28,776 nt of DNA from IMG/VR virus record IMGVR_UViG_3300047498_000046, positions 1 to 28,776 of that record. The stretch is one strand, 5' to 3'. A model generated the notes under the pieces. The model saw nothing but the letters and a program-made list of their open reading frames with translations, searched no databases and was not told the DNA's origin. Made by a program: the position numbers and the translations under genes. The DNA comes from a virus. Shown here in pieces: positions 8,495 through 28,667 of this stretch (the first letter of the stretch is position 1; each line of letters opens with the position of its first letter).

Positions 8495-8619
8495 TGCTTT
8501 ACTGGACTTGCCCAAGGTGCACCGGGAAGACCCTGGTGCACCTGCTGCATTGCAGTGCATGCGGAGAGCACCGGCCAGCTCCTCCGCCTAAGCCGACCAA
8601 ACCTCAGCCAAATTCATAA
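8494..8619 (+). CDS. Small zinc-ribbon protein (41 aa)
   Basis: This short gene begins at ATG 8494 inside the stop of the SF1 helicase (TAATG); an AAGGA lies about nine bases upstream. Its first half has two CxxC knuckles, CPRC (Cys6, Cys9) and CSAC (Cys20, Cys23), spaced like a small rubredoxin-type zinc ribbon. The second half is a proline- and lysine-rich tail, RPAPPPKPTKPQPNS. The function is unknown; small ribbons of this type often bind nucleic acid or partner proteins. It is the last gene of the plus operon, and its 3' end overlaps the convergent adhesin gene by 16 bases. A strong hairpin lies inside it. Being so short, it could be spurious, but the two CxxC pairs and the coupled start support it. 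Confidence 0.62.
   Translation: MLYWTCPRCTGKTLVHLLHCSACGEHRPAPPPKPTKPQPNS
8516..8542. terminator. Hairpin at the convergence of the two operons
   Basis: The palindromic octamer GGTGCACC occurs at 8516-8523 and again at 8535-8542. The bases between them add a GGG/CCC pair around an AAGA loop, giving an 11-bp stem with a single bulged T at 8534. No T-run follows on either strand, so it is not a textbook intrinsic terminator. Its place between converging operons suggests termination or 3'-end protection in either direction. It lies within the zinc-ribbon coding sequence. Confidence 0.4.
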
Positions 8620-9542
8620 ACAACCACATAGCCATTAGCGCCGGCAGCACCAGCAAGGTTGCTGGTATCGGTGTTGTTGCTGCCGCCAGTTGCGCCGCAG
8701 CCCGGATAAGCGCCAGCAATGGCGGGATTGCTTTGGGTATCATTTTTAAGAGTGCCCCCAGGAGGCTGATTTCCATAAATGGATGATCCCCCCGCTCCGG
8801 CCTGGATAAGCAGGGAAGATGCTCCTGGGGCCGCTGCAGCGCCGATAGTATTTATTTGAATATCCGAAGCACCAGTGACTGTGCATACCACCGTTTGCGC
8901 CAAGCCAGTTGCGATGATAGCACCAGAAGCGGTAGTCTGTGCTGATCCTTTGGTGCCGCCAGCCCCGCCTGGTGCTGATATCAAGCTACCAAAGGTAGTA
9001 GTTCCGCCTTGGTTGCCGTTATTATTTCCCGCTCCTCCTCCGGTCCCGCCAAGGCCTAGCGTGACTGCGATCCCCCCGGTGAAGCCTGAAGTAAATTGGG
9101 CTCGCGCAAAAGAACCAGCTTGACCGCCCCCGCTTACCGCGTTTTGCATGTTGCTGCATGCTTGGGTTCCGCCGGAGCCGCCCCCGCCGCCCACAGCTTC
9201 GACTAATATAAAGCGCGCTAACGGGTTTGCGGTATAGGTCCCATTAGCGGCAAAGCGCTGAGTGCCTATCCAGCGCCCTTGCACCGCTGCGGTAAAAGCT
9301 GTCAGCAGCCCAGCGATGGAGCCATTATCTACCATGGGTAGGCCAGATTGCTGGACCGCAAATGCTGCGATCATAGCGGCGATAGAGGTCCCCTGTCGCA
9401 TGGCTTTATTAAAGCGCGCAGAGCTGGCAATGGTATCCGCGGTCTCGCCTGCCGCGAGCGCTGCATACGCAGCATAACTTGTTTGAGTTTCAATGTTGGT
9501 AGAGCTGTTTGCGAATACTAAATAGTCGTTTTCCACGGTCAT
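8604..9542 (-). CDS. Glycine-rich tail fibre / receptor-binding adhesin
   Basis: This 312-residue protein has an N-terminal part (1-100) rich in Ala, Ser and Thr, probably a trimeric or attachment region. It is followed by a long glycine-rich C-terminus (about 115-312) with blocks such as VGGGGGSGG, GLGGTGGGAGNNNGNQGG and QPPGG, and closes with ANGYVVVYEFG. This ending is typical of glycine-rich phage adhesins, in which Gly-rich segments pack as polyglycine-II helices and the loops contact the receptor. GAAGG lies about eight bases before the ATG. It is the last gene of the minus-strand tail block, after the baseplate genes, where host-recognition proteins usually sit. No separate fibre chaperone gene is seen. 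The receptor cannot be predicted. Confidence 0.75.
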   Translation of the reverse strand: MTVENDYLVFANSSTNIETQTSYAAYAALAAGETADTIASSARFNKAMRQGTSIAAMIAAFAVQQSGLPMVDNGSIAGLLTAFTAAVQGRWIGTQRFAANGTYTANPLARFILVEAVGGGGGSGGTQACSNMQNAVSGGGQAGSFARAQFTSGFTGGIAVTLGLGGTGGGAGNNNGNQGGTTTFGSLISAPGGAGGTKGSAQTTASGAIIATGLAQTVVCTVTGASDIQINTIGAAAAPGASSLLIQAGAGGSSIYGNQPPGGTLKNDTQSNPAIAGAYPGCGATGGSNNTDTSNLAGAAGANGYVVVYEFG

Positions 9543-21596: not shown

Positions 21597-22637
21597 TCAG
21601 ATTCCATCCATATAGCCAACGGTTTCCGGATAGACGAACTCCATCACCCCGAGCCGGCCAAAATAGGTGCAAAGCTGGTAGATGGAGCGATACTCCAGCG
21701 GAGTGCGCTGCAAGGGGACCATCGGGAACCGGACCCGGTCGATATCCTGGGTATAGGCGCACATGCGATTGGTGCCGCCAACTCCGCGACCAATAGCCCA
21801 TTTGACCGGCTGGATGTCCAGCGGGACGCCGTTGGCCGTCATGGAAAGCGAGTTTTCCTTAAGAAATGCGAGGATGGAACGTTCGCCGGCCGTGGAAACT
21901 TTGGTCGAAACCAAATAACCAAAGTTGGTGGGCGGAAGCAGTAGCTTGCGCGGCATGACCGCCCAGCCCGATGCGGTCCAGACCGAAGTCAAAAGCTGAT
22001 TGACGTCGGCCAGAATTTCATCGGGGGTCTTGGTGGTCCAGAGCGGTGAGCCCGCTCCCCCATTTGGGGCGTTGGTGATGGTACCGACGCCGGTATAGTT
22101 CAGCAGGCCCGGCTGATTGAAGGTCGTGTCGCCGATATAAACCTGCTCATCGGTATCCATCTGGTGCTTGAGCCGCAGCGCATCGAACTTCTGCGCATCG
22201 ACCGGCCGGCCAAGCTTCTGGCTGGAAACCAATTCGGGGATGGTGTATTTGATCTCCAAGCCCCAGAGATACAGCGGGTGAATGGTCTTGCCGATGTCCA
22301 GCGCAACGCCGGAGATGGCATTCGCATCCTTGCTGATCCAGGACTTGCCGCCTGGAATGATACCGCCGGCGGACGCAAAGCTGGAATTGGTAAAGCTGGA
22401 CTGCTCATCCTCAATGCCCACATCCTCGCGGAGATTGATGTCGCGACCCCAGGTCACCGCAACCAGCGGATCATGCAGCTTTTGGTCGAGACGTTCCAGC
22501 TCTCCTACAAGAAAGGCGCCGGTACCATCAATGGTCAGTTTGTCGTAGGTCATACCGACCGACTGCGAGTCGGTGAGCAACCGCCGGTGACGCGTCGGGG
22601 TCAGGGCGGTACCATCCGCCGCAATCAATTTGGTCAT
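21597..22637 (-). CDS. Major capsid protein (DUF2184)
   Basis: This 346-residue protein is a DUF2184-type HK97-fold major capsid protein. It lies at the expected place after the cement gene and before the connector genes. Features include an N-terminal arm (1-40), the conserved ELERLDQKLHDPLVAVTWGRDI (about 47-68), a region with KTIHPLYLWGLEIKYTIPELVSSQKLGRP (about 117-145), and DALRLKHQMDTDEQVYIGD (about 151-169). The C-terminus carries RMCAYTQDIDRVRFPMVPLQRTPLEYRSIYQLCTYFGRLGVMEFVYPETVGYMDGI (292-346), typical of the P-domain end, with the closing GVxxxYPETVxYxDGI. The AAGGAG about nine bases upstream is strong, in keeping with high expression. I see no internal cleavage signature. Confidence 0.93.
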   Translation of the reverse strand: MTKLIAADGTALTPTRHRRLLTDSQSVGMTYDKLTIDGTGAFLVGELERLDQKLHDPLVAVTWGRDINLREDVGIEDEQSSFTNSSFASAGGIIPGGKSWISKDANAISGVALDIGKTIHPLYLWGLEIKYTIPELVSSQKLGRPVDAQKFDALRLKHQMDTDEQVYIGDTTFNQPGLLNYTGVGTITNAPNGGAGSPLWTTKTPDEILADVNQLLTSVWTASGWAVMPRKLLLPPTNFGYLVSTKVSTAGERSILAFLKENSLSMTANGVPLDIQPVKWAIGRGVGGTNRMCAYTQDIDRVRFPMVPLQRTPLEYRSIYQLCTYFGRLGVMEFVYPETVGYMDGI

Positions 22638-22679: not shown

Positions 22680-23177
22680 TTAGATGTTGAATGCGATTTC
22701 CGTGATACCATTGGCATCGGCCGGCCCGGTGAAGACCGCATTGGCCGCGATGAGACCTGACCCCGCCGCAGCTTCGACGCCGCCTTGAAGAAGCAGACCA
22801 GTGAAGCCCGAGATGCGCACATAGACCGGGGCACCCTTGACCGCTGCGGTGGCGTTTTGCAACAACACCGTCATATAGCCGCGCCGCAACACATCGCAAG
22901 CACCCTGCGCTTCCGCGGTCGAGACGCCCAACACCGGAGCTTGGAGCGAATCCTGGATCGGATAGGGGCGAACCAGGAAGCCGTAGATCGCGGTATCGCC
23001 GGTGGCCGGCAGACGGATCTGGCCGGTCGCTGCATCGGGCAAAACGCCGACGCCAAACGCTACCGGGGCATTGGCATTGCCGGCCGGCGTGATAACCTGG
23101 GGTTCGATGGTCGCGATTTCAGCACGGTTAACATCGCCGGGAATCCCCGCCGGCATCCGGAAAGTAAATGCAGTCAT
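22680..23177 (-). CDS. Capsid cement/decoration protein, Gp24-like
   Basis: This 165-residue, beta-rich protein with few charged residues resembles structural cement protein Gp24. It opens FTFRMPAGIPGDVNRAEIATIEPQV (4-28), with the family's GxxGDVxRxxxxTIEP pattern. It then has VAFGVGVLPDAATGQIRLPATGDTAIYGFLVRPYP and a central GACDVLRRGYMTVLLQN, where the family has RxGYMxV. Such proteins bind the outside of the capsid lattice at three-fold sites and stabilise it. It is encoded just before the major capsid protein and has a perfect AAGGAG eight bases before the ATG. No signal peptide is present. Confidence 0.82.
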   Translation of the reverse strand: MTAFTFRMPAGIPGDVNRAEIATIEPQVITPAGNANAPVAFGVGVLPDAATGQIRLPATGDTAIYGFLVRPYPIQDSLQAPVLGVSTAEAQGACDVLRRGYMTVLLQNATAAVKGAPVYVRISGFTGLLLQGGVEAAAGSGLIAANAVFTGPADANGITEIAFNI

Positions 23178-23217: not shown

Positions 23218-24702
23218 TTAATTCCAGGCCTTGGCGTTGCGGGCATTGATCTCCGCGATGGACGGGGTTTTCTGCTGGCAAAAAGTCATGGCCCCCACCT
23301 GGGTAACCCCAGGGACCGCCCCACCGCGGTTCTTGTCCAGCGCATTGTGCTGGCGGACCAGCTCGGAGGCGCCGGCAAACATATCGGCCAGCTTATCGCA
23401 GCTCATGGCCTTGATATCCGGGGCATCGCCGGTCAGCGGCCGGATGATGGGGCCGAGGTCTTTATTATCCAGCGCATTGCCCAGCGCGCGGCGCTTCATC
23501 GCGCACATTGCGTCTTGCGTAAGCTTGAAGTTCGCCCGCGCATCGAAAGTATGCAGGCGAATGCCGGGGGAAAGAATTTCGGCGCGACTAACAGTTTCCT
23601 GATAAGCTGCCGCAAGCGAGCTGGAATCCTTGACGGCCAAGCGATCTTTCGTAGACCCGTTATCGTCATCATCCTCCGGGTTCTTGCCCTCGGCCGCATC
23701 GCGCATGCGCTTATCAGCGGCTTCGCGCTCTGCCTTCTCCTTTTCCTCATCCTTGGCTTTGCGATCTTTCTTCAGCCGGTCCATGGTCTTGGAATAGGCA
23801 TCCTTCATGCGGGAATCCTTCATGCGGGAATCCATCGCGCGGTCGCCGGTGCATTCCTGCATATCATCCATGCGCGCTGCCATCTCGCCGATCGCATCCA
23901 TGACCTCCGACATATCGGGCGAAATGCCATCGTCAGTGCCAGGGCCGGCCATGTGAATATGAACGCCGCCAGGGGTGTCGTCGTCATCGGGCTCCGCTGC
24001 ATCGCCGGAAAGCACCTCGGCCAAGGCCATCTTGCTGGCCTCTTCATCCTTGGTTGAAATGGCAAGCATGAGCTTATCCATTGCGGTCGAACGCGCCAGC
24101 TTACGGCGCAATTTGTTGGTCGTAACGGCGCGAACTACCATCTCTTTATCTCCGATTGCGCAGCGGGGTCCACAACGGCCCCGATCTACAAGTGCTACGT
24201 GATTGCCAATAATCCCCAGCTGTCGGCCCATGCCTGGACTGGTCTCTTCGTAATCGCAGTCGTACCCACTGGATACTTCTGCAATTTCCTTAGCGCGAAT
24301 AGCCGCAATAACATCGGGTGCCGTAATCAGCAAATCAGCCAACATCAGATCAGCTTGCTGACCTTCACCGCGCCTGGGGTGCATGACAGTGCCGATTGCA
24401 AACAGCGACCAATTCTCAGGGGTAACCGGACCTGGCGGATGATCCAGGGTAACCGGCTTGCCTGCAAAACTTGAAAGCGCAGCATCGCTAAAAAGCGCAG
24501 TCTCATCGCGGGAGATATGCACAATACCATCCGGACCACCTGCAATGCCTACCTCTTCAGGTAGATATTGCAGCGTTCCCAGGCGACCGATGGGAACATT
24601 TTCGCAAAGCAGGAAGCCTTCCGGGGTCAGGCTTTGGGTCGGACCAAGCTGCTCCACCGTAAAAAACTTCGAAGCCTTGTCAACAGTCAAACGCTTCCTC
24701 AT
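23218..24702 (-). CDS. DUF2213 capsid maturation protease with scaffold-like C-terminus
   Basis: This 494-residue protein has an N-terminal DUF2213 domain (about 1-190). Recognisable runs are TPEGFLLCENVPIGRLGTLQYLPEE, FAGKPVTLDHP and EIAEVSSGYDCDYEE, ending with GNHVALVDRGRCGP; this is the prohead-protease-like block seen upstream of DUF2184 capsids. The candidate catalytic residues are in VTLDHP and SSGYDCDY. Residues 200-340 are acidic and very charged, with the repeats SRMKDSRMKD and a coiled-coil KKDRKAKDEEKEKAERE. The C-terminal 150 residues are helical. A protease fused to a scaffold is a common design: the scaffold shapes the procapsid and is then degraded. The start overlaps the upstream spanin gene's stop (ATGA), linking lysis and head genes. 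Confidence 0.84.
   Translation of the reverse strand: MRKRLTVDKASKFFTVEQLGPTQSLTPEGFLLCENVPIGRLGTLQYLPEEVGIAGGPDGIVHISRDETALFSDAALSSFAGKPVTLDHPPGPVTPENWSLFAIGTVMHPRRGEGQQADLMLADLLITAPDVIAAIRAKEIAEVSSGYDCDYEETSPGMGRQLGIIGNHVALVDRGRCGPRCAIGDKEMVVRAVTTNKLRRKLARSTAMDKLMLAISTKDEEASKMALAEVLSGDAAEPDDDDTPGGVHIHMAGPGTDDGISPDMSEVMDAIGEMAARMDDMQECTGDRAMDSRMKDSRMKDAYSKTMDRLKKDRKAKDEEKEKAEREAADKRMRDAAEGKNPEDDDDNGSTKDRLAVKDSSSLAAAYQETVSRAEILSPGIRLHTFDARANFKLTQDAMCAMKRRALGNALDNKDLGPIIRPLTGDAPDIKAMSCDKLADMFAGASELVRQHNALDKNRGGAVPGVTQVGAMTFCQQKTPSIAEINARNAKAWN
23801..23830. repeat. Tandem 15-bp repeat, two copies
   Basis: Two perfect copies of TCCTTCATGCGGGAA lie head to tail at 23801-23815 and 23816-23830, followed by a decayed partial copy. 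On the minus strand they encode repeated SRMKD units in the charged scaffold region of the DUF2213 protein, preserving its reading frame. Confidence 0.9.
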
Positions 24703-25079
24703 GGATCAGCACCTCCAAGCGCTGCTAAATCCGCCCTGCATTGGTCAGCAGCCACCAGCAGCTTCGTCGCATATGCAAGAATCTGCTTGGTTGCAAGCGT
24801 TTTGGGAAATGCAGGATCAGCAGGACATTGCAAGCGATCCTGCGCGATGATGGTTTTGACTCGTTCGACTTTGGTGAACACTTGCACCGAATCGATGACC
24901 TGGGGCGCTGCCGGGGGTGGATAAGGTAGCGGGGAAGCGGCCTTACAAGCGCATCCCGCTACCAATAAGTAAAGCCATAGGCTGCTACTGGCCGTGCCCG
25001 GTTTGAGCCTTAATGTCTGCAACGCTTTGCTGGAGCTGCGCGAGCTGCGTTGAGATGGAATATGCAATAGTCTGCTCAT
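24699..25079 (-). CDS. Rz1-like outer-membrane spanin (lipoprotein)
   Basis: This protein has a lipobox, LLVAGCA, with Cys43 counting from ATG 25079, followed by a proline-rich segment (SPLPYPPPAAP) as in Rz1-type o-spanins. Its C-terminus carries LQCPADPAFP and ILAYATKLLVAADQCRADLAAL, matching a common phage lysis-protein pattern with a Cys, then P..P, then CR..L. The 42-residue leader from the ATG is long for a lipoprotein; a TTG at 25022 would give a leader of normal length (Cys at 24) but has no obvious ribosome site. The 5' end overlaps the small membrane gene upstream, as spanin genes often do. Together they should fuse inner and outer membranes at the end of lysis. Confidence 0.63.
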   Translation of the reverse strand: MSRLLHIPSQRSSRSSSKALQTLRLKPGTASSSLWLYLLVAGCACKAASPLPYPPPAAPQVIDSVQVFTKVERVKTIIAQDRLQCPADPAFPKTLATKQILAYATKLLVAADQCRADLAALGGADP

Positions 25080-25257
25080 CTGACTGGGCCTTGATTAATT
25101 GCGCGATCTCCTGGCCTTGGTATTGCTGGGTCGCGACCAGGGTCGAATTATTATTCGCGAAGCTGTAGATGACTGCGCCGCAACCGAACAAAACGCTGAC
25201 CCAGGGGATCAACTGCTTGATGATTGCCGTGGCCTCCGAGTGCTCGGGATCTGGCAT
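24985..25257 (-). CDS. Small membrane protein, putative inner-membrane spanin
   Basis: This 90-residue protein starts at ATG 25257 behind a clear GAGGAG (seven bases). One membrane segment, LIPWVSVLFGCGAVIYSF (about 16-33), is followed by a periplasmic, glutamine-rich helical region (40-85: QGQEIAQLIKAQSDEQ, QLAQLQQSVADIKAQ) likely to form a coiled coil. This is the build of an i-spanin, though shorter than most (about 150 residues). The overlap of its 3' end with the lipoprotein gene in another frame is typical of Rz/Rz1 pairs. An alternative start at 25284 adds nine residues and nearly touches the upstream stop. It could instead be a small holin; the neighbouring lipoprotein favours spanin. 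Confidence 0.6.
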   Translation of the reverse strand: MPDPEHSEATAIIKQLIPWVSVLFGCGAVIYSFANNNSTLVATQQYQGQEIAQLIKAQSDEQTIAYSISTQLAQLQQSVADIKAQTGHGQ

Positions 25258-25285
25258 TGGTAGCTCCTCTGGTAGGTCTAGCATT

Positions 25286-26065
25286 TTATGAGGCCCCCAA
25301 ACCAAGGATACCGCGCTGGGACTGAATAATTTCATCCAGCGCTTGCATGGAGTAGCCAGACGGGCTTAAATGAGTCGTTTTATCAATCCAGTTTCGCCGG
25401 AGCAGGGTCATACCTTCCGACATATATTTCAGCATCCAGTCCCTGCTAGCCATGACATAGCCGTTCCAGGTCGCGATACGGAACCAATCCCGCTGGGCGG
25501 TCGCGCCCACCAGCAGCGTATCATGGCCCCCTAAGCTACCGGGGGCATTGTCCAGGTTCTTCCATAGCCCGGAATAGAATTCTTCATCCGAGCCTTCCGG
25601 CAATTCCACCCCAAGCTCCTGCGGACCGAAGATGGCCAGCATGCGGGTGAGGGTATCCAGGTCACCACCTTCGATTTGCGCAAAAGCATCCAGCTTGTCG
25701 AAAGCCCCATTTGCGCTGATCGAAAAGCCCTCATTCATCCAGAAGATGTTTTTGGCCAGCAGCACCAGCCCATCGTCATTGGCCTTGGTGACCGGGTTAT
25801 AGCCTGCGGCGCGACTATAGTTATCGATGCTGCAGCTAACATCCGGGATCTCCATGGCACCATTTAGATTGGTGATGAATTGCTGATGATGCAAGCTGGT
25901 TGCGATCGTGCAGCAGCCGCAGATGTCATTCCCCAGCATGGGGATGCTGGTCACCGTGCCGGACCAGTCGATAGCACCAAGGGGGGCAGGCGCTGTCATA
26001 AAGGTTTTTGCCAGGGCAAGCCCGGCATGAAATTCAGGGGTCTTCTTGCCTAAAAAAAGCTGCAC
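25286..26065 (-). CDS. Papain-fold (C1-like) cysteine peptidase, candidate lytic enzyme
   Basis: This 259-residue protein starts with GTG 26065 behind GGGAGG (eight bases). It has IPMLGNDICGCCTIATSLHH (41-60), in which Cys52 holds the place of the catalytic cysteine of papain-like enzymes (GND..G.CT.A..H is a recurring form in phage proteins). Next come GGHDTLLVGA with His181 and ATWNGY with Asn201, completing a Cys-His-Asn triad. There is no signal peptide, so it would need a holin to leave the cytoplasm. It is flanked by a lipoprotein and holin-like gene upstream and spanin-like genes downstream, so an endolysin role (peptidoglycan peptide bond cleavage) is plausible, but a virion or regulatory peptidase cannot be excluded. 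Confidence 0.65.
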   Translation of the reverse strand: MQLFLGKKTPEFHAGLALAKTFMTAPAPLGAIDWSGTVTSIPMLGNDICGCCTIATSLHHQQFITNLNGAMEIPDVSCSIDNYSRAAGYNPVTKANDDGLVLLAKNIFWMNEGFSISANGAFDKLDAFAQIEGGDLDTLTRMLAIFGPQELGVELPEGSDEEFYSGLWKNLDNAPGSLGGHDTLLVGATAQRDWFRIATWNGYVMASRDWMLKYMSEGMTLLRRNWIDKTTHLSPSGYSMQALDEIIQSQRGILGLGAS

Positions 26066-26141: not shown

Positions 26142-26636
26142 TTAAGCGGCCTGGAGGATGGTGCGCGCCTGACCGGGGGCATACTTGGAAGCTACAGGGG
26201 CAGCGGCCAGCAACCCGACCGCAGCGAGCAGGCCGGGGAGCAGAGAGTTTGCAGCTTCGAGGACCTCCAGCACGCCAGGCGGCAGCAGGGCGTTCACCGG
26301 GGGAGCAGTCGCAATGGCCAAAGCTTCGCCGATGTAGGTTTTGATCTGCGAAACGATGGGGCCGGCCTGGGCAACCGAAATGCCGGATACGATAGCGCTG
26401 CCGACCGAGGCCGCTTCCGAGACATAGTTTTCCAGCTCGGTCAAGGTTGTGGTGGGAATGCCGGTCAAGGCTTGGATGGTCGGCAGCTCCTTGGAGAATG
26501 CGCTGGCAACCAGCTCCGCATCGGAGACCGCGGTCTGGGCAAGCTGCTGTGCGGTCTGCCCAGCGCAAGCTGCCAGGACCAGGGAAGCGGCAAGAAGCGC
26601 GCTGGACCCGCGCAAGATGTTACGGCGACTTTGCAT
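26142..26636 (-). CDS. Tat-type lipoprotein of unknown function
   Basis: This 164-residue protein has an N-terminal twin-arginine signal, SRRNILRG (3-10), fitting the S-R-R-x-[FLI]-L-K consensus. A hydrophobic stretch then leads to a lipobox, LVLAAC, with Cys24. The mature part is helical and rich in Ala, Val and Leu, with no recognisable domain. A phage-encoded Tat lipoprotein is unusual. It could alter the cell envelope (for example superinfection exclusion) or assist lysis; neither can be decided here. The gene sits between the holin-like and peptidase genes with 12 and 76 bases to its neighbours. AAGGA lies about nine bases before ATG 26636. Confidence 0.7.
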   Translation of the reverse strand: MQSRRNILRGSSALLAASLVLAACAGQTAQQLAQTAVSDAELVASAFSKELPTIQALTGIPTTTLTELENYVSEAASVGSAIVSGISVAQAGPIVSQIKTYIGEALAIATAPPVNALLPPGVLEVLEAANSLLPGLLAAVGLLAAAPVASKYAPGQARTILQAA

Positions 26637-26648
26637 GAGGGGATTTCC

Positions 26649-27161
26649 TTATTTTGCAGGAGTTGGGACGGAAGCGGCCGGTGGGATAAGGGCAATCTGC
26701 ACCGCCCCGTCGATCCGCGCCGCAATGGTGGCCGGGGTGACATTCTTCAGCTTCATGGCAGCAAGCGTGCTGTCTGACAGCGTATTCAGAATGTTGGCCA
26801 CGGTAGCATTCTGAACATCAATTGGCTTGACCGTGCTGGGAGCTTTGGCCAATGCAGAGATCACCGACTGGCTGCCTGAATTGACCAGCAAGTCGAGAAT
26901 GTTCGCCGCATTGGAGCCGGCCGCCAGCTTGAAATGAGCCTTGGCCCATATTGCCAATATGCCAAGGATAGTCGGGATGGCCGCGGTGGCCACCCCGATG
27001 ACGAGCTGGAGCCAGGGTGAGATGTCGAAGGTATTGCTGGCAACAGCGGTGGTCTGGGCATGAGCGGGATGCGCAAATAGCAGCGCAAGCAACCCAAGCA
27101 GGAAGAACATAAAAACGACGAACCGGGCAAAGCCCCGGTCCAAAGTAATGGCCTTAAGCAT
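26649..27161 (-). CDS. Exported membrane protein, holin-like
   Basis: This 170-residue protein has an N-terminal hydrophobic stretch (13-33, VVFMFFLLGLLALLFAHPAHA) ending in an AHAQ-type signal cleavage site. A second membrane segment, LQLVIGVATAAIPTILGILAIWAKA (about 51-75), follows. The C-terminal 95 residues are predicted helical and soluble (TLAAMKLKNVTPATIAARIDGAVQIALI). If the first stretch is cleaved, it is a single-span protein; if not, it is a two-span holin. Some phage holin families have such an extended C-terminal domain. The position next to a peptidase and spanin-like genes supports a holin role, but no signature motif confirms it. GGAGA lies six bases before the ATG. Confidence 0.6.
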   Translation of the reverse strand: MLKAITLDRGFARFVVFMFFLLGLLALLFAHPAHAQTTAVASNTFDISPWLQLVIGVATAAIPTILGILAIWAKAHFKLAAGSNAANILDLLVNSGSQSVISALAKAPSTVKPIDVQNATVANILNTLSDSTLAAMKLKNVTPATIAARIDGAVQIALIPPAASVPTPAK

Positions 27162-27190
27162 GCGTTTTCTCCAGGTGGTTGAGGAAGCCT

Positions 27191-27793
27191 TTAGCTGCCG
27201 GATTCAGTCCATTCGATCCAGCAGTCAAGCGAGGTGCCGGCCGCAAAGCTGGTCGCGTTGGCGTTCAGCGCAAAAATCTGGTTGACCCCGCGCAGGACAT
27301 CTTCCTTATCATTCTGCAGCCCATAGTTCTGGGTCCAGGGATAAGGCGCTGGCACTGCGTTTGCCGGAGCGGTCCCGAGATATTCGGAACGATAGGCCCC
27401 GATCAAGGTCCCAAGCGTTGCTGGGTTGGCGGTGTAGCCCGTCGCGACCGCGGTGGCCGCTGCATCATTGGAATCCATCGGCACCGCGGTCGCGGTCGTG
27501 GAGGTCCCGCCGGTATCGGCAGTGGAGCGATCCAGCACATAAATACGATCAGTAGCGGCCGCGGTGGAAATGCCCTGGCACTGGACGTTCTTAATGTGGA
27601 CCACCATGGTGGCAGATCCACTCAAGGTCAAGAAATCAGTCGCCGAGGATGCGGGCACCAGTGCGGTAAAGTTTGCCGAATAGGTGGCAACACGCTGCGG
27701 GATGGAAATCGTGCTGGCGGAAGGCCCGGCAAATGCGTAAGTGGGGAGCAATCCCAAAGCGAGTGCGCTCAGAAAGCCAAAAAGTTTTTTCAT
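27191..27793 (-). CDS. Secreted protein resembling phage virion proteins
   Basis: This 200-residue protein has a Sec signal peptide (MKKLFGFLSALALGLLPTYAFA, cleavage near residue 22). The mature part has FTALVPASSATDFLTLSGSA, then RIYVLDRSTADTGGTSTTATAVPMDSNDAAATAVATGYTANP, and ends in NQIFALNANATSFAAGTSLDCWIEWTE. This pattern (PASSATDFxTixGSAT; VxxRSTAxTGGTSTxxTAVPxDSNxxAATA; IEWTE) recurs in phage and prophage proteins of unknown, presumably virion-surface, function, as far as I recall. The signal peptide is the odd part, as virion proteins normally lack one. GGAGA stands ahead of the ATG at 27793. Function unknown; it might be displayed on or released from the host cell. Confidence 0.65.
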   Translation of the reverse strand: MKKLFGFLSALALGLLPTYAFAGPSASTISIPQRVATYSANFTALVPASSATDFLTLSGSATMVVHIKNVQCQGISTAAATDRIYVLDRSTADTGGTSTTATAVPMDSNDAAATAVATGYTANPATLGTLIGAYRSEYLGTAPANAVPAPYPWTQNYGLQNDKEDVLRGVNQIFALNANATSFAAGTSLDCWIEWTESGS

Positions 27794-27827
27794 TGCAATC
27801 TCCGATGAATGCTGAAGGGTGAAGCGA

Positions 27828-28079
27828 TTAGCCCAAATGGGCGCGGATAGTGCGGGCCAGGCGCTCCATCCGAGGACTGAGGCCGGCCGGGATTTGGGCG
27901 ATCTTGCCTAGGGCAAGCGCGATATCGTCTTCAATCTGCTTTTCCCAGTCGGCGACACTGGGCTGGCCGGTATCGCCGACCTTGGCCACAGGGGGCTGGG
28001 TGACCTGCTGCGCTTGTGGCGGCAAATTCTTAACATCGCGGATGGGTTCTTCGTCTGCTTTGGGTTTTTCATCGGTCAT
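27828..28079 (-). CDS. Hypothetical small acidic protein
   Basis: This 83-residue protein is not assigned to a family. The first half is charged and proline/glutamine-rich (MTDEKPKADEEPIRDV, LPPQAQQVTQPPVAK), likely disordered. The second half is a helix, DWEKQIEDDIALALGKIAQI, then a basic C-terminus, SPRMERLARTIRAHLG. There is no signal peptide or membrane segment, unlike its neighbours. A good AGGAG lies nine bases before the ATG. The layout (disordered N-terminus, amphipathic helical end) suggests a small adaptor or regulator, but nothing in the sequence decides this. Confidence 0.62.
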   Translation of the reverse strand: MTDEKPKADEEPIRDVKNLPPQAQQVTQPPVAKVGDTGQPSVADWEKQIEDDIALALGKIAQIPAGLSPRMERLARTIRAHLG

Positions 28080-28091
28080 TTGATATTACTC

Positions 28092-28667
28092 CTATTGCGC
28101 GGTTATCGAAAAAGTCTCCCTCGCCGGCACGCCAATCGCTGAGTCCGTTCCGGTGATGGTCACGGAAAGCGTGCCAGCAGCGGGCGGCGTGCCGGTGAAA
28201 GTGTTGCCGGAAAACGAGAGCCACGGAGGCAGCGGATTGCCATTTGCCAGCGTAGCGCTGTAAGTAATTGCATCTCCCGCGTAGCCGGTGAACTGGCTTA
28301 CGGTCACGATATCGGCGGTTTGTTTCAGCACGGTCTGAGCGCCCATCTGGCTGAAAGTCGGCGTGACCGCTGCGGTAGATAGTAGGGAGGACTTCTCCAC
28401 TGGTGTCAGGTCAGCCGCGCCACCCGTAACGGTCGTGGGGTAGCCGTACTGCCCGCCCTGCCAGACCTCGATCAGCGCTGTGCCGTCCGCGAGGGTGTGT
28501 TCAGGCCACCAGTAGAGCGTGCCGCCCTGGCAATTCACGGCGGCGCAATACGCGGCGTTGCGGGTGTTTGCGGCGGTGATGGAGGGTTCGGGGAGATAGA
28601 AGTGGGGGCCGTCCGCAAACGCGAGGCTGGGCAGCAGGGTTAGAACGAGGGCGAGGGTACGTGTCAT
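28092..28667 (-). CDS. Secreted protein with Ig-like (putative cadherin/He_PIG type) domain
   Basis: This 191-residue protein has a Sec signal peptide ([18 protein letters not shown], cleaved near residue 18). A first part has two cysteines and an aromatic pattern ([18 protein letters not shown]). The final 70 residues form an Ig-like repeat with [42 protein letters not shown]; the PxWLxF...FxGTPxxAGT signature is that of the putative-Ig He_PIG family, common in surface and phage adhesion proteins. Its ATG overlaps the stop of the gene entering from the right (ATGA), with GGAG seven bases before. It may attach to cell surfaces or other proteins. It is encoded first in this run of exported proteins. 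Confidence 0.72.

Follow-up and report, generated by a model that had tools for sequence, protein, structure and literature searches.

A run of predicted exported proteins in an uncultured myovirus-type phage, best read as a lysis cassette beside exported accessory proteins

Four of five adjacent genes at one end of an uncultured phage contig carry predicted export signals, and the best-supported reading of this run is that it consists of two modules side by side, a lysis cassette and a group of exported accessory proteins. Judged from their sequences, the accessory proteins, encoded by genes 27191 and 28092 (genes are named here by their first coordinate), look like virion-type domains with an added signal, a point absent from an earlier note on this DNA.

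A dense run of export signals

The window, by which we mean the whole stretch of DNA analyzed, is a linear IMG/VR record of 28,776 bases from a myovirus-type phage. Its minus strand encodes sheath, tape measure, baseplate, head protease, cement, and major capsid proteins, and its plus strand encodes replication genes; this replication block includes an SbcC-like ATPase gene (phrog_77, positions 565-2343). No cultured phage close to the window at the DNA level was found. Genes were called from codon usage with our own script, which yielded 36, and signals were scored with our own von Heijne-type weight matrix, which is distinct from SignalP, together with rules for the n-, h-, and c-regions. 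Export signals fell on exactly four of the 36 called genes, all within one five-gene run:

28092..28667, minus strand: exported protein, Ig-like, 191 aa; Sec signal with cleavage after residue 18, between AFA and D (score 6.8)
27828..28079, minus strand: small acidic protein, 83 aa, no export signal
27191..27793, minus strand: exported jelly-roll protein, 200 aa; Sec signal with cleavage after residue 22, between AFA and G (score 12.4)
26649..27161, minus strand: Holin_LLH-like protein, 170 aa; Sec signal with cleavage after residue 35, between AHA and Q (score 13.4)
26142..26636, minus strand: small lipoprotein, candidate Tat substrate, 164 aa; twin arginine SRRNIL, lipobox LAAC24

A plausible ribosome site accompanies each of the four signal-bearing ORFs, all of which lie on the minus strand, and their spacing in the run is 12-34 bases. 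The earlier note had described four export signals here and called their density unusual, and both points hold: the ORFs exist, all four are flagged, no other called gene is, and against a background signal rate of 2.8% (1116 genes of relatives), the probability of finding at least four among five adjacent genes is about 3e-6. The Ig-like domain that it placed in the run is also there, as a He_PIG match in 28092. Its assignment of a Tat signal with lipobox to 26142 stands for the lipobox, while Tat export is suggested by the SRRNIL motif only.

The lysis cassette

Downstream of the left half of the run lie three further genes:

25286..26065, minus strand: papain-like cysteine peptidase candidate, 259 aa, no signal; Cys52 and His181 conserved
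24985..25335, minus strand: i-spanin, Rz-like; one transmembrane segment at 37-56 and a long C-terminal part (phrog_1327, E 0.0052)
24699..25079, minus strand: o-spanin, Rz1-like; lipobox LVAGC (phrog_456/11951, weak, E ~0.4; 0.38 for phrog_456)

The two envelope-directed spanin-like genes, at 24985-25335 and 24699-25079, lie downstream of the run and were absent from the earlier note. The o-spanin and i-spanin genes share 95 bases, as in the two-component Rz/Rz1 layout. In 26649, a transmembrane segment at residues 50-73 follows the signal and precedes a C-terminal domain, and the gene sits in a lysis cassette, as the Holin_LLH layout expects. The Holin_LLH profile (PF09682) gave no match to the window protein and a weak one, below the cut-off of 24.9, to its homolog in comparison locus L003 (14.0 bits, E 0.069); this homolog (L003:5995-6408) is 64% identical to 26649 but lacks a signal. 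The signal peptide predicted on the holin-like protein is the unusual feature of the cassette, and it would put the N terminus of that protein outside.

The lipoprotein 26142 is not beside a receptor-binding gene and follows the holin-like gene both in the window and in L003, where its counterpart retains the twin arginine and the lipobox at 29% identity. Tat-like motifs, by motif comparison only, read SRRNIL in 26142, LRRNLIK in L003, and SRRLVVG in L013. Searches of Pfam, PHROGs, and NCBIfam gave no family name for 27191, 26649, or 26142. For 25286, Cys52 and His181 are conserved in a three-way alignment and the catalytic Asn is not; its profile matched a cysteine protease in the PDB weakly (3ois, E 0.0036), it is 27% identical to a protein of MW202816 that adjoins an amidase, and an AF2 model from two sequences reached a pLDDT of 28.7. 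It is possibly an endolysin or an accessory peptidase.

Gene order in relatives points the same way. L003 has the holin-like protein, the lipoprotein with twin arginine and lipobox, and a relative of the cysteine peptidase in succession. In MW202816 (L004), the order is a protein with a signal and additional hydrophobic segments, then a lipoprotein, then an amidase, and finally the relative of the peptidase. The series 26649, 26142, 25286, and 24985/24699 fits a lysis cassette in which the lipoprotein and the peptidase have putative roles. Ahead of the holin-like gene of L003 lie four genes with signal-like N termini (L003:523-5957), two of them long, one matching a tail-fiber PHROG and the other a pectin-lyase PHROG.

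A neighborhood comparison indicates that the four signal-bearing genes do not travel together. L003 carries the homologs of 26649 and 26142 beside lysis genes and has none of 27191 or 28092, L004 is analogous, and in other phages homologs of 27191 occupy a slot among the head genes without lysis genes. The proposal that the four form a set acting as a unit on the host envelope is not supported, given this split between lysis and head-gene contexts; what survives of it is that the products are envelope directed, which their signals support and, for 27191, so independently do cysteine pairs that track the signal, and that a role in lysis fits the left half (26649 and 26142). In the right half, superinfection exclusion or surface action may apply.

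The jelly-roll and Ig-like proteins and their slot among the head genes

The downstream end of the slot in question is the head maturation protease gene, followed in the window by two further head genes:

23218..24702, minus strand: DUF2213 head maturation protease (PF09979, 152.7 bits; phrog_1961, phrog_12864)
22680..23177, minus strand: capsid cement protein (PF23982, 97.5 bits; PF22758, 82.1 bits)
21597..22637, minus strand: major capsid protein (phrog_264, E 6e-83)

The AF2 model of 27191 is all-beta with a pLDDT of 88.6. Among the viral proteins that share this fold by Foldseek, the top match was in uncultured Caudovirales (E 2e-15), and PDB entries for capsid jelly rolls matched weakly. 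An alignment-based scan found relatives in 344 IMG/VR loci, of which 80 were kept. Many of these relatives are C-terminal domains of long fiber-like proteins without a signal, and others, with a signal, are encoded directly upstream of the DUF2213 protease gene (L007, L010, L019/L021). A Pelotomaculum MAG (L080) also has a homolog directly upstream of the DUF2213 protease gene, without a signal, and searches for the family in 385 and 398 genomes returned only this known MAG. Single-sequence scans with 28092, 25286, and 27191 gave no confirmed viral loci, and tblastn against cultured phages returned no match for 27191, 28092, 26649, L086, L090, or L157, to which masking of Thr/Ala-rich low-complexity sequence may contribute. 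27191 matched neither PF11133 nor any PHROG and has only its genomic slot in common with the PF11133 head fiber. A strong hairpin lies inside its coding region (27443-27494, minus strand; −51.5 kcal/mol over 101 nt, z −4.4).

28092 has an N-terminal domain with Cys41 and Cys46 and a C-terminal He_PIG domain (PF05345, 37.6 bits, curated cut-off 24). Its ATG overlaps by four bases the TGA of an upstream gene truncated by the contig end. The C terminus encoded by that gene is unlike a minor head protein, so the head-gene slot probably continues past the contig end. Since neither sequence scans of viral loci nor tblastn in cultured phages found a relative of 28092, its membership in the slot group rests on its position and on Cys41/Cys46.

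Relatives were also collected by the major capsid protein, which gave 72 IMG/VR loci. Of 35 loci for which the capsid protein was the sole criterion, 6 carry a signal-bearing gene in the slot between the minor head and head protease genes, and in such capsid-picked loci signal-bearing genes are enriched there (6/41 in the slot versus 17/653 elsewhere, odds ratio 6.4, p 0.0014). Similar signal-bearing runs occur in L162, L167, L168, L170, L171, and L172, and a second slot family has the motif QTYPxxxPTYIP directly after the cleavage site. Signal-bearing proteins in relatives match tail-fiber or virion families. Cultured relatives mostly have an empty slot or other genes in it: Edwardsiella phage ZHS has a PF11133 head fiber there without a signal, and in Pbunavirus PB1, Pam3, SEN34, BUCTT20, EKP1, Magia, and others, it is empty or holds no signal-bearing gene.

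Several further observations concern this slot and its surroundings. The run in L172 (6001-12429) encodes signal-bearing proteins with 4, 12, 4, and 14 cysteines, the last of which matches virion-structural and tail-fiber PHROGs. A second site, just upstream of the sheath gene region, holds tandem signal-bearing fiber-like genes (L007:17156-20708, L046:3830-8760), and one gene at this site in L007 combines He_PIG with a GDSL esterase domain. In L014 and L032, genes that by eye look like GIY-YIG endonucleases lie between the minor head and head protease genes.

Some major capsid proteins also open with a signal-like hydrophobic arm before the conserved domain (L008:9773-10984, L010:6975-8102, L051:9881-10993), as do those of L009 and L078, which group with L008. 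The arm is likely a cleaved or variable one, and because such arms exist, a signal score alone proves nothing.

Cysteine pairs follow the signal

An alignment of 48 representatives of the 27191 family at 70% identity contains 16 members with a Sec signal and 32 without. A cysteine pair on either of two antiparallel-strand registers is present in 12 of the 16 signal-bearing members and in none of the others (Fisher 2.6e-8, kinship ignored). Eight signal-bearing members have the pair in columns 54/199 and L116 has it in 56/197, the neighboring rung of the same ladder (sum 253); L133 and L150 use columns 38/181 and L019 uses 36/183, again one ladder (sum 219). Ladder adjacency was taken from these column sums, as expected for antiparallel strands, rather than from coordinates. 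The exceptions are L085, L121, L129, and L160, which bear a signal without a pair. In 27191 itself, a disulfide is predicted between Cys72 and Cys191, joining strands 63-75 and 188-199.

On a tree built without the pair columns, and with signal labels partly assigned by eye, a minimum of nine changes is needed for the signal and of five for the pair; supported branches by themselves force only three changes of the signal. The 54/199 pair belongs to one clade of eight, the pairs have about four origins phylogenetically, and an independent-pair test on the tree gave 2:0, which is not significant. Across all slot proteins, even and odd cysteine counts stand at 24:1 with a signal and 12:13 without, counts to which loci selected for these families and a small number of near-duplicates contribute. 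The overall cysteine percentage does not differ significantly between signal-bearing and other genes (p 0.13), so that only parity and position differ. Because a disulfide makes sense only in an oxidizing compartment, the pairs support real export of the 27191 family.

Possible roles of the exported proteins

Because tailed phages put their particles together in the reducing cytoplasm, secretion signals and disulfides are unexpected on fiber or decoration proteins. Four features can be read from sequence: the export signals, the jelly-roll fold of the 27191 model, the position of the slot in relatives, and cysteine pairs that accompany the signals. They suggest that virion-appendage-type modules are routed through Sec in many uncultured phages. 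For the window, we consider it fairly probable that a lysis cassette stands beside Sec-exported appendage-type accessory proteins. If 28092 and 27191 are Ig-like and jelly-roll domains of the virion-appendage type that acquired Sec signal peptides, they would be moved into the periplasm during late expression, where they would lose the signal and form their disulfide, and they would be released at lysis.

What they would do then is less certain. Our tentative leading choice is that they would serve outside the cytoplasm as soluble adhesins that bind host envelope or debris, sparing progeny or blocking re-adsorption, with an effect resembling that of T5 Llp. We lean slightly to this because such phages also encode ordinary fibers and because the cytoplasm is where the virions of tailed phages are assembled. 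A close second, itself doubtful, is attachment to virions after lysis, which is nearly as likely since the fold and the slot are common to appendage-type proteins.

This second reading can be put more fully as virion appendages that mature outside the cytoplasm and join the progeny as late head fibers or decorations when lysis mixes periplasm and cytoplasm. Signal-less homologs use the same fold in the same slot (L080, for example), ZHS has its PF11133 head fiber there, and signal-bearing proteins elsewhere match tail-fiber and virion families, but virions of tailed phages are built in the cytoplasm and ordinary fibers coexist with the signal-bearing ones (window 8604-9542; L188), so we regard it as a real contender that is nonetheless unlikely. 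The broader proposition that in many uncultured tailed phages genuine appendages, such as head fibers and tail spikes, are Sec-routed, folded and oxidized in the periplasm, and added at or after lysis in a two-compartment assembly seems somewhat less likely still. Searches of the open literature, with subscription journals mostly outside their reach, turned up no description of Sec signals on the fibers or decoration proteins of tailed phages, or of a two-compartment route.

The remaining explanations are less likely. A single unit of all four proteins that acts on the envelope in superinfection exclusion or surface display would suit genes that are adjacent, closely spaced, and all signal-bearing, but it is improbable given that the holin-like gene and the lipoprotein gene keep to lysis genes (L003) and the jelly roll to head genes, and a late gene position speaks against early exclusion. 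We give as little credence to the idea that all are lysis proteins, with 27191 and 28092 regulating or assisting from the periplasm as, for instance, antiholin-like or spanin-helper factors; they do stand directly ahead of the holin-like gene in the window, with 29 bases between, and signal-bearing proteins precede that gene in L003 too, but most slot proteins of relatives lie between minor head and protease with no adjoining lysis gene, and their homologs are fiber-like. Least likely of all is that the N termini only resemble signals and are hydrophobic arms with no part in export, as those on the capsid proteins of L008, L010, and L051 may be, since the proteins at issue have AXA cleavage sites, signal-tracking cysteine pairs on matched strand registers, and the 24:1 excess of even cysteine counts.

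Matched signal and predicted disulfide features recur in a defined slot across many uncultured phages. Either soluble adhesins shape the surroundings of the lysed cell, or particles are finished outside the cytoplasm, and both possibilities bear on superinfection, on the loss of progeny to debris, and on the annotation of "hypothetical" genes in head regions.

Comparison with known systems

The cassette genes resemble known lysis components in layout. Like Rz/Rz1 spanins, 24985 and 24699 encode a transmembrane protein and a lipoprotein from overlapping genes, with a weak sequence match (E 0.0052). Like Holin_LLH proteins (PF09682), 26649 is small, with a single transmembrane segment followed by a C-terminal domain, and lies in a lysis cassette, but it falls below the curated cut-off and adds a cleavable signal, so that the likeness is one of working and not of membership. 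Host Sec is used for lysis proteins in the case of fOg44 Lys44 and of SAR endolysins (PMC6116005). There, the endolysin is exported, whereas in the window the signal is on the holin-like and appendage-type proteins and the peptidase 25286 has none.

The phi29-type head fiber PF11133 and the T4 Hoc-type Ig decorations are likewise beta or Ig-like proteins with an accessory role, and their genes lie among head genes. They differ in that 27191 and 28092 bear export signals, and 27191 matches neither PF11133 nor a PHROG; we know of no export signals on known head fiber or decoration proteins. The Llp protein of T5 and BF23 is a phage-made exported lipoprotein whose presumed role is to block the receptor and keep progeny from being lost to debris (PMC4728585). 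It is encoded beside a receptor-binding gene, unlike 27191 and 28092, which lack a lipobox and lie among head genes. The lipoprotein 26142 lacks the receptor-binding-gene neighborhood of the Llp/Cor type but shares the lipobox (LAAC24), and 27191 and 28092 share with Llp that they are phage-made and, by prediction, exported.
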